In this document: positions 2,766 through 6,700 of the stretch, piece by piece
Layout of the letters: the number at the start of each line of letters is the position of its first letter
Numbering within the stretch: position 1 is the stretch's first letter
NCBI RefSeq assembly: GCF_018304965.1
Contig: NZ_JAGQED010000003.1
Coordinates: 124,001-188,000 of the forward strand
Direction of reading: 5' to 3'
DNA from: Collimonas antrihumi
GTDB lineage: Bacteria; Pseudomonadota; Gammaproteobacteria; Burkholderiales; Burkholderiaceae_D
Length of the DNA: 64,000 nt
The notes under the pieces: model-generated
What the model saw: only the letters and a program-made list of their open reading frames with translations
Database searches by the model: none
Told to the model about the DNA's origin: nothing
Translations under genes and position numbers: made by a program

Positions 2766-3362
2766 ATGACGACCAAACTGGAAACCCTGGAAGCCGCCGT
2801 GCGCAATGCGCTTGGCGACGACCTTCAAAGTCTGACAGTGGCCTTTGGCGAGATCACGATCGTGGTCAAGGCTTCGAATTACCTGTCAGCGATGCGCGTC
2901 CTGCGCGATCATGCCGATACCCGTTTTGAAGAACTGATCGACCTCTGCGGCGTCGATTATTCGACCTATGGCGACGGTATCTGGGAAGGCGCCCGTTTTG
3001 CGGCGGTTTCCCATCTGCTGTCGATCGAACACAACTGGCGCCTGCGCGTCCGCGTGTTTGCACCGGACGACGAAATGCCGATGCTGGCTTCGCTGACCGA
3101 TATCTGGGCTTCGGCCAACTGGTATGAGCGTGAGGCTTTCGACTTTTTCGGCATCCTGTTCGAAGGTCACAACGACTTGCGCCGCATCCTCACCGACTAC
3201 GGCTTCATCGGCCATCCGTTCCGCAAGGATTTCCCGGTGTCGGGTTATGTCGAGATGCGCTACGACGCTGAGCAAAAACGCGTAATTTATCAACCCGTAA
3301 CGATCGATCCGCGCGAAATTACGCCGCGGGTGATTCGTGAAGAACATTACGGGATCAAATAA
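2766..3362 (+). CDS. nuoC: NADH-quinone oxidoreductase subunit C (30 kDa)
   Basis: A peripheral-arm structural subunit of complex I with no redox cofactor. The 198-residue product carries the 30-kDa signature around [29 protein letters not shown] (residues about 117-145) followed by [12 protein letters not shown]. It is a separate gene here, not fused to nuoD as in enterobacteria. An AAGAGA ribosome-binding site precedes ATG 2766. Its stop overlaps the nuoD start by one base (TAATG at 3360-3364), which implies coupled translation. Confidence 0.97.
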
Positions 3363-4615
3363 TGGCAGAAATTAAGAATTACACGCTGAACTTCGGTCCG
3401 CAACATCCGGCCGCGCATGGTGTTTTGCGCCTGGTGCTGGAGTTGGATGGTGAAGTCATCCAGCGTGCCGACCCGCATATCGGCCTGCTGCATCGCGGCA
3501 CCGAGAAATTGGCGGAACAAAAAACCTATCTGCAGTCAGTGCCTTACATGGATCGCCTCGACTACGTGTCGATGATGTGTAACGAGCATGGCTACGTGAT
3601 GGCGATCGAACGTCTGCTCGGTCTTGAAGTGCCGCTGCGCGCGCAGTACATCCGCGTCATGTTCGATGAAATCACGCGTCTGCTGAATCACCTGATGTGG
3701 ATCGGCGCGCATGCGCTGGACGTCGGTGCGATGGCAGTGCTGCTGTACGCATTCCGCGAACGTGAAGATTTGATGGATTGCTACGAAGCCGTTTCCGGCG
3801 CCCGCATGCATGCTGCCTATTACCGTCCGGGCGGCGTTTACCGCGATCTGCCGGATACCATGCCGCAGCACAAGGCATCGCTGGTGCGCAATGCAAAAGC
3901 CATCAATGCCCTGAACGAAAATCGCCAGGGTTCCTTGCTGGACTTCATCGAAGATTTCACCGTGCGCTTCCCGAAATACGTGGATGAGTACGAGACTCTG
4001 CTGACCGATAACCGTATCTGGAAGCAGCGTCTGGTCGGCATCGGCGTGGTGTCGCCAGAGCGCGCCAAGGCGATGGGCTTTACCGGCGCGATGCTGCGCG
4101 GTTCCGGCGTTGAATGGGATTTGCGCAAGAAGCAGCCGTACGAAGTGTACGACTTGCTCGACTTCGATATCCCGGTCGGCAAGAACGGCGATTGCTATGA
4201 CCGTTACCTGGTGCGGGTTGAAGAAATGCGCCAGTCCAACCGGATTATCAAGCAATGCGTAGAATGGCTGCGCAACAACAGCGGCCCTGTGATGACAACC
4301 AACCACAAGGTTGCGCCATCGTCGCGGGTCGACATGAAATCCAACATGGAAGAGCTGATCCATCACTTCAAGCTCTTCACTGAGGGATTCCACGTGCCGC
4401 CGGGCGAAGCTTACGCCGCAGTGGAGCATCCAAAGGGCGAATTCGGCGTGTATATCGTGTCGGATGGCGCCAACAAGCCGTACCGCTTGAAAATCCGTGC
4501 ACCTGGCTTCCCGCATTTGCAGGGTTTGAACGAAATGGCCAAGGGCCACATGATTGCCGATGCCGTTACCATCATCGGTACGCAAGATATAGTGTTCGGC
4601 GAAATCGACCGTTAA
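3362..4615 (+). CDS. nuoD: NADH-quinone oxidoreductase subunit D (49 kDa)
   Basis: NuoD forms most of the quinone-binding cavity with NuoB. The 417-residue protein begins with [18 protein letters not shown], the conserved quinone-site region with the His implicated in ubiquinone binding, followed by [16 protein letters not shown]. It also has the family signature ([17 protein letters not shown]) and ends with [12 protein letters not shown] as in bacterial homologues. It has normal length. The start overlaps the nuoC stop. Its own stop codon abuts a 119-bp palindromic element that separates it from nuoE. Confidence 0.98.
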
Positions 4616-4734
4616 GGAGACTCTAAGAACCTACTGCGCGACTCAATCCCTGGTCTGCGATGCTCGCTGTACTAAAGTACAGCTCCGCTTCTCGACCAGA
4701 CCTTGAGCCGCTCGCTACGGTTCTTAGAGTCTCC
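4616..4734. repeat. 119-bp palindromic element between nuoD and nuoE
   Basis: The element starts at the base after the nuoD stop. Its outer 16-base arms (GGAGACTCTAAGAACC at 4616-4631, complement at 4719-4734) are perfect. The arms stay partly complementary inward, and the centre is GCTGTACT / AGTACAGC (4666-4673, 4676-4683) around an AA loop. The whole could fold into one long, bulged hairpin in the nuo transcript. It contains no open frame of note. The rest of the spacer (4735-4819) shows nothing recognisable beyond the nuoE leader. Confidence 0.85.
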
Positions 4735-4819
4735 TGAAGTCAGTTGCTGAATCCTATGGAATTTATGCGAATTTGTTACTAACTACTCGCGCAAAACATC
4801 GCGCACGAATGGCCAACAC

Positions 4820-5311
4820 ATGTTGTTAAGTCAAGATACATACAAAAAGATCGATCGCGAAGTAGCGAAATTCCCCGCCGACCAGAAACAGTCGGCGGTG
4901 ATGGCCGCTCTGGCGATTGCACAGGATGAAAAGGGCTGGCTGGCGCCGGAAACCATGCAGGATGTCGCGGATTACCTCGGCATGCCGGCTATCGCGGTGC
5001 AGGAAGTCGCGACCTTTTACAATATGTACAACACCAAGCCGGTCGGCAAGCACAAGATCAGCATCTGCACCAATCTGCCATGCCAGTTGTCCGGCGGCGA
5101 TCGGGCGGCGGAGCATCTGAAGCACAAGCTCGGCATCGGTTTCCGTGAAACCACCGCAGACGGCCAGTTCACCCTGGTTGAAGGCGAGTGCATGGGCGCT
5201 TGCGGCGATGCGCCGGTGCTGCTGGTCAATAACAAACGCATGTGTAGCTGGATGTCGAACGAAAAGATTGACGGCTTGTTGGCGGAACTCAGTGAGGTAA
5301 CCCCTAAATGA
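4820..5311 (+). CDS. nuoE: NADH-quinone oxidoreductase subunit E (24 kDa, 2Fe-2S N1a)
   Basis: NuoE carries the [2Fe-2S] cluster N1a of the NADH dehydrogenase module. In this 163-residue protein the ligands are C83 and C88 in ICTNLPCQL and C124 and C128 in [11 protein letters not shown], the standard thioredoxin-fold ferredoxin pattern. An N-terminal helical part (about 5-65, with ATFYNMYNT) is typical. It lies about 204 bases after nuoD, the widest gap in the operon, because of the palindromic element. Its stop overlaps the nuoF start (ATGA at 5308-5311). Confidence 0.97.
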
Positions 5312-6603: not shown

Positions 6604-6615
6604 GGCTAACTGCCG

Positions 6616-6700
6616 CGTCATCCTCGCGAACGCGGGGATCCAGGTTACTGCTTAGGATCGCAGCTAGGATGGATTCCCGCGTTCGCGGGAATGACGGGGT
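6616..6700. repeat. Interspersed palindromic repeat (copy 1 of 4), nuoF-nuoG spacer
   Basis: A pair of small inverted repeats: CGTCATCC-TCGCGAACGCGGGGATCC on the left and GGATTCCCGCGTTCGCGGGAATGACG on the right, with a short unrelated centre. It resembles the ATTCCCGC...GCGGGAAT type of repeat (dRS3-like) that is common in beta- and gammaproteobacteria. Other copies are at 31371, 44412 and 58561. Confidence 0.85.

Follow-up and report, generated by a model that had tools for sequence, protein, structure and literature searches.

The hairpin between nuoD and nuoE of Collimonas antrihumi is probably an old copy of a MITE-like element family moved in trans by IS5-family transposases

Introduction

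RUP elements, one of the groups of bacterial MITEs, are moved by resident insertion sequences (ISs), and integron attC sites conserve structure over sequence, favour one of their two strands and are situated just after stop codons. NEMIS/Correia and ERIC-type MITEs are described, in the part of PMC2229807 drawn on here, as mostly intergenic elements of approximately 100-200 bp with terminal inverted repeats, target duplications and transcripts that form long hairpins, and the same part of that source proposes NEMIS transcripts as targets of RNase III. REPs are given as 20-40 nt in the corresponding part of PMC3733652.

The present analysis concerns a 119-bp near-palindrome between nuoD and nuoE in the window, i.e. 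the whole 64,000-nucleotide stretch of C. antrihumi DNA that was analysed (positions 124,001 to 188,000 of contig NZ_JAGQED010000003.1). The element resembles bacterial MITEs in being short, bounded by terminal inverted repeats, dispersed in many copies and free of any transposase gene. No description of it was found in the open-licence literature, as covered by listings and the opening parts of abstracts.

Results

Position and fold of the hairpin

The first-pass annotation had described a near-palindrome with perfect 16-base arms directly after the nuoD stop codon, and this description proved exact in both coordinates (4616-4734) and sequence. The stop codon TAA occupies 4613-4615, the left arm begins at 4616, the first base after it, and the two inverted arms of 16 bases each (4616-4631, GGAGACTCTAAGAACC, and 4719-4734) are perfectly complementary. 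The start of nuoE is at 4820, and the identities of nuoD and nuoE are both backed by Pfam. Minimum free energies of -63.1 kcal/mol on the plus strand (z -9.2) and -72.8 kcal/mol on the minus strand (z -10.5), with equally stable folds in 0 of 200 shuffles for either strand, confirm that the 119-bp hairpin is real and far above chance expectation. The parts of the element and its neighbours are as follows.

3362..4615, plus strand: nuoD, upstream gene (PF00346)
4613..4615, plus strand: nuoD stop codon TAA, left flank; many copies have TNA here, possibly a decayed target duplication
4616..4734, minus strand: whole element; minus is the strand whose pairing appears constrained
4616..4631, plus strand: left arm, 16 nt, IS5-type terminal inverted repeat, fully complementary to the right arm; in the related genome G102, related copies have arms that match IS5-family ends
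4632..4639, plus strand: conserved internal-loop strand A, 5' side; orthologous-site divergence 0.049 (tetraloop 0.305)
4639..4646, plus strand: middle stem, 5' side, pairing with 4703-4710; end bases overlap loop strands A
4650..4655, plus strand: upper stem, 5' side, pairing with 4694-4699
4656..4665, plus strand: conserved internal-loop strand B, 5' side; divergence 0.068
4666..4683, plus strand: apical hairpin of 7 bp; the tetraloop (4673-4676) evolves fast
4684..4693, plus strand: conserved internal-loop strand B, 3' side; divergence 0.075
4694..4699, plus strand: upper stem, 3' side, partner of 4650-4655
4703..4710, plus strand: middle stem, 3' side, partner of 4639-4646
4710..4718, plus strand: conserved internal-loop strand A, 3' side; divergence 0.139, with copies that have a replaced 3' half included
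4719..4734, plus strand: right arm, 16 nt, terminal inverted repeat, recognised by arm complementarity
4735..4737, plus strand: TGA, right flank; a TNA signal is seen on both sides of copies
4820..5311, plus strand: nuoE, downstream gene (PF01257)

The nuoD copy has no intact target duplication, since its flanks differ (TAA on the left, TGA on the right). No Rfam family reached the gathering cut-off over the 119-bp element or over the copies in the 18 loci searched, and within 4500-4900 there were 0 terminator-like sites and no minus-strand promoter-like site was seen. The nuo genes run on downstream of the hairpin. A second palindrome in the nuo operon occupies the nuoF-nuoG gap (6613-6699), with 30-nt arms that are 87% complementary and 27 nt apart.

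Copies of the element and their range

The element is not peculiar to the complex I operon but dispersed, both within its own genome, where 3 copies were found by BLAST and 4 by a covariance model (the fourth much weaker, E 8.6e-16), and across other genomes, with family matches in 17 of 40 relatives. Under strict filters, the family was recovered from 42 of 150 genomes sampled across the order, counting this one, which represent 31 of 91 genera, and the other 108 gave no match to the element; copy numbers in this order-wide sample are lower bounds because scoring was confined to 24 candidates per genome. A pattern scan of named genomes gave at least 120 stretches, and among the 80 matches listed many belonged to Janthinobacterium, Massilia, Herbaspirillum, Ralstonia and Zoogloea, with a few elsewhere, e.g. 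in Solimonas. The plasmid and phage collections contained no match to the element.

Across the family the element measures 118-143 nt and carries no transposase gene. A longer subtype (L337-L353 and L355), mostly of 138-143 nt with one copy of 133 nt, occurs in several genera and has altered inner modules, e.g. CTCATGTAC..GTACATTCCGG. Copies with another form of 3' half, in which approximately AAGTCAGCGTAGCTGAGGCTACGG replaces CGCTCGCTACGG and adds a small hairpin, include L072, L077, L080, L082, L087, L088 and L091. One copy (L125, 3284-3498) lies directly 3' of a selenocysteine tRNA gene, and L181 is, by eye, similar to it. The 3.4-Mb chromosome of genome G115 bears the mark of a recent burst: with at most 2 mismatches allowed, a single arm sequence matched at 109 forward and 124 reverse positions, whereas the reversed control pattern matched at 4 and 0.

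Occupied and empty sites

The sites are polymorphic. Within the genus, nuoD-nuoE is occupied in 3 of 15 genomes, from three lineages that are not sisters, and the other 12 have no recognisable copy there; together with the 4 copies in the genome, this agrees with the mobile origin that had been suspected from the single sequence. Ten of the 12 empty spacers contained no element remnant above chance in a shuffle test, and the remaining two (L044 and L046, from genomes G006 and G001) contain a short stretch resembling the right end (CACGCTACRGTGG), which was equalled in 24 and 20 of 300 shuffles, respectively. Since the three occupied alleles have their downstream sequence in common, an old insertion that was lost repeatedly, or an exchange of alleles, is likely. 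The empty and occupied spacers are too different for a clean junction to be read.

The sites that follow an SdhB-like gene, thiS and a TonB receptor gene likewise vary, with the element present in some genomes and missing from others. In the thiS-thiG gap of loci without the element (L258, L266, L268, L270, L274 and L284), GTAGGGTGGGC-like palindromic repeats were seen by eye, so two unrelated kinds of repeat appear to use this spot. At site D (L013, with empty counterparts L255, L259 and L260), the empty relatives retain the left arm, which abuts the right flank without a gap, suggesting either that the left arm is host sequence or that these alleles are deletion scars between AACC repeats. 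Site D prompted consideration of inverted copying of the host flank by snap-back synthesis. This is not general, as the genus of G019 has empty alleles without arms at four sites (clean at L115 and L119, not clean at L029 and L117), and at site D itself deletion between the AACC repeats also fits.

Terminal repeats, IS5-family partners and target duplications

Among 155 distinct copies, pairing of the ends stops sharply after pair 16. The arms of one copy pair with each other at 0.83 of positions, compared with 0.49 when arms are swapped between copies and a maximum of 0.51 in 200 shuffles, and in these comparisons the 16-17-bp arms behave as terminal inverted repeats.

The match of the element's ends to IS5-family ends comes from G102, the single genome compared in detail. 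In G102, insertion sequences with the ends GGGAACCTCGAAAAACC or GGCCACCTCTAAAAACC encode a DDE transposase, the one translated belonging to the IS5 family (NF033581, transpos_IS5_4; 271.6 bits against a cut-off of 140), and 7 of the 8 IS copies compared by eye have identical 4-bp flanks, e.g. TTAA, TTAT and ATGA. In 12 of the 20 element copies fetched from this genome (24 were scored), each arm agrees with the ends of these resident ISs in at least 11 of 14 positions, a level attained by 0 of 1440 background 14-mers; the other 8 of the 20 fell below the threshold. The ISs share their ends with the element and not their core (TCGGCTGACC vs TACTGCGCG), so the core of the element did not arise from them by simple deletion. 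In the genus member G006, GGAAGCACTGATTTATTC forms the ends of an IS that encodes an NF033581-type transposase and has CTAG flanks, and this type of end is close to the arms of a subgroup of copies in other genomes (L194, L092 and L100). In the C. antrihumi genome itself, no intact IS with the ends of the nuoD copy was found, only partial IS5_4-like matches. No partner IS for the G115 burst was found among three of its five transposase size classes (all but the 526-aa and 347-aa classes), which had other ends or no clear ends.

Target duplications are present in the family: flanking 4-mers set off from the 16-bp arms by a single base are identical in 11 of 18 copies in G115 (1.1 with flanks swapped) and in 5 of 20 copies in G102 (0.5). 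In the mixed, older set, the signal is weaker, with TNA standing on both sides of 16 of 140 copies, close to the 13.8 expected, but with the same middle base in 11 of the 16.

Conservation of the core

The stems stay paired across copies. Changes on both sides were seen in 29 of the 41 consensus pairs, the covariation score was reached by 0 of 500 shuffles, and 92.6% of cells were paired, compared with 71.8% in shuffles and 32-41% when slid; these figures rest on a structure predicted from the minus strand, a choice that favours G.U on that strand. Exchange of whole sets of ends between IS lineages could explain the pairing of the arms, but not that of the inner stems. At orthologous sites, both partners had changed at 72 pair positions, in 51 cases from one standard pair to another, where approximately 24 would be expected if the sides were independent; the count draws on 12 orthologous groups with at least 2 distinct parsable copies (13 listed), and the copy pairs are not independent of one another. 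The stems thereby appear to go on changing in place while staying paired.

The internal loops are conserved. In 14 orthologous groups, divergence was 0.035-0.075 in internal loops and junctions, with 0.139 in loop A3, a value inflated by the copies with a replaced 3' half, compared with 0.145 in the arms, 0.067-0.232 in the other stems, 0.305 in the tetraloop, 0.132 in the left flank and 0.288 in the right flank. Decayed copies have possibly escaped detection, yet the tetraloop sits in the same copies.

The two kinds of wobble pair are unevenly represented in two of the three stems. Counted with fixed geometry on the nuoD-sense strand, the outer stem has 136 A.C against 56 G.U and the upper stem 100 against 4 (61 of the 100 at one position), whereas the middle stem is even, at 94 against 88, with counts of 34 against 4 for the own genus and 54 against 74 for the named set. 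Changes on a single side of a pair between orthologous copies comprise, on the plus strand, 101 A.C and 27 G.U, and all stems without the one upper position, again with fixed geometry, give 147:77, 70:31 and 68:28 in three gene contexts. As an A.C on either strand reads as G.U on its complement, the favoured strand is the one antisense to nuoD. The energy-derived structure of the minus strand, a biased measure, has 66 G.U and 23 A.C. Mutational strand bias as the source of the asymmetry was considered and is not supported, as the three gene contexts agree and the flanks have no A+C skew (0.497).

Placement at stop codons

A same-sense gene lies to the left of the element in 75 of 137 classified copies and has its stop codon within 10 nt of the element in 72 of the 75, a classification that needs coding sequence close to the element; antisense right-hand genes with a stop found have it within 10 nt in 8 of 43. 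Under a stricter rule, left sense stops compared with right antisense stops numbered 19/43 and 5/43 in the own genus, 7/8 and 0/8 in the genus of G019, 63/87 and 23/87 in the named set, and 7/20 and 2/20 in G102, with 4 and 1 of 6 in a further set and 8 and 4 of 17 for the long type, and 0/18 and 2/18 in the G115 burst. In looser control windows further out, the named set (261) had 19 on the left and 40 on the right, and the genus (129) had 16 and 23. A target preference as the source of the bias is unsupported, both because copies away from stops have no purine bias at the middle base and because 0 of 18 copies in the G115 burst are at sense stops. With an excess at sense stops in most sets and none in this burst, the placement looks like retention rather than targeting, and the exception may reflect the use of another transposase in G115.

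Discussion

The nuoD-nuoE hairpin is, in all probability, an old copy of a non-autonomous MITE-like element, the family of which would be moved in trans by IS5-family transposases, as judged from the ends, duplications and site polymorphism of its relatives. Such a transposase would recognise the paired ends and move the element, and insertions falling on a stop codon would spare the gene and survive. The nuoD copy would have inserted at the stop codon without harm to nuoD and later diverged in place, with its stems kept paired and its loops nearly fixed. In the nuo mRNA, the element would form a long intercistronic hairpin, most likely either tolerated or contributing to mild mRNA processing rather than acting as a dedicated switch. 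Against the MITE reading stand the broken duplication of the nuoD copy and the lack of a recovered partner IS in its genome, the unrelated core of the G102 ISs, the 8 of 20 copies below threshold there, the G115 burst with no partner among the transposase classes compared, the unclear nuoD-nuoE junction and the left arm carried by the empty relatives at site D.

The first-pass annotation had instead proposed that the hairpin uncouples nuoA-D from the genes from nuoE onward, by RNase processing or attenuation. A very stable hairpin right behind a stop codon, further copies between thiS and thiG and after the SdhB-like gene, and the NEMIS transcripts proposed as RNase III targets in the cited part of PMC2229807 would all be in line with a dedicated intercistronic device, but this proposal gained no support from the analysis and is considered improbable: a recognisable copy is missing here from 12 of the 15 genomes of the genus, there is no terminator-like site, such wobble bias as there is favours the antisense strand, and the family also stands beside unrelated genes. 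An intrinsic terminator would likewise account for a long hairpin immediately behind a stop codon, yet with 0 sites of the form stem-loop then T-run in 4500-4900 and with the nuo genes continuing downstream, it is hardly credible. The palindromic, intergenic and dispersed nature of the element, a GTAG at a conserved minus-strand position and a match to a Y1-type transposase in 15 of 15 genomes of the genus could suggest a REP or BIME spread by a REP-associated tyrosine transposase, a very unlikely origin given a length of 119 nt compared with the 20-40 nt stated for REPs in the cited part of PMC3733652, the joint occurrence of the core motifs in 0 of 12 fetched Y1 loci, and 4-bp duplications and IS5-type ends that point elsewhere. 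The Y1 gene of the own genome is flanked, by eye, by another repeat, and locus L248 (G000:C66:163957-164286 with flanks) has a Y1 transposase gene, a 251-codon open frame, with GGGGTCAGAGTC-type repeats adjoining, also by eye. Recombination of an attC-like site as folded single-stranded DNA by an integron integrase would fit the retention of structure over sequence, the favouring of one strand in two of three stems and the position just past stop codons in the sense direction, but is extremely unlikely, as the copies looked at adjoin housekeeping genes and have target duplications, and the variation at every arm position but the first speaks against constant end boxes.

A further reading, which is compatible with a MITE origin, sees the minus strand of the core as a functional structured RNA or single-stranded DNA, preserved by selection at old sites to which transposition had brought it. 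It would account for the two-sided changes in 29 of 41 consensus pairs and the covariation score found in 0 of 500 shuffles, for loops and junctions diverging by 0.035-0.075 (loop A3 0.139) beside a tetraloop at 0.305 and a right flank at 0.288, and for the 101 A.C against 27 G.U among one-sided plus-strand changes, a bias that holds in three gene contexts with a flank A+C of 0.497. On the other side, the middle stem is unbiased overall (94 vs 88) and leans the opposite way in the named set (54 to 74), no minus-strand promoter-like site was seen in 4500-4900, copies are not independent, the minus-strand structure prediction itself favours G.U, and 108 of 150 genomes gave no match, such that this reading is possible but doubtful. 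A broader version, in which one folded core found across the order wears the terminal repeats of different IS5-family ISs and, once settled near stop codons, is maintained by selection for its strand-specific structure as RNA or DNA, is more speculative and rather unlikely. Conserved loops, strand bias and stop-codon placement would nevertheless not be expected of an inert MITE.

If the preferred explanation of a MITE-like origin is true, a repeat that more than a quarter of the genomes sampled from this major order contain would be an IS5-dependent MITE, its core would be a candidate structured element spreading by exchange of transposon ends, and a link between transposition and RNA structure beside stop codons would become testable. 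For the nuo operon, the result urges caution against taking a dispersed repeat for operon-specific regulation.

Comparison with known systems

As far as the cited part of PMC2229807 describes them, bacterial MITEs (NEMIS/Correia, ERIC and also RUP) are like the element in size, inverted repeats, duplications, hairpin transcript and intergenic placement, and the element may be regarded as partly NEMIS/Correia- and ERIC-like in its working. It differs from them in having IS5-type ends of 16-17 bp that vary between lineages, internal loops conserved at orthologous sites and strand-biased wobble in two of three stems, in its preference for sense stop codons in most sets, and in its spread over 31 of the 91 genera sampled from the order. 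With IS5-family ISs (NF033581) it shares its ends in G102, and similar ends in the case of the G006 IS, as well as 4-bp duplications or CTAG flanks, whereas it has no transposase gene and its structured core is unrelated; at 119 bp it is far too short for a transposase and is thus not itself an IS5-family IS, but at most an element dependent on one. REP, BIME and REPIN sequences are, like it, dispersed extragenic palindromes, but the element is longer, has IS5-type ends and has no copy in the 12 fetched Y1 loci. Integron attC sites resemble it in structure over sequence, one favoured strand and a position after stop codons, in contrast to which the element has target duplications and ends whose variability speaks against constant boxes.
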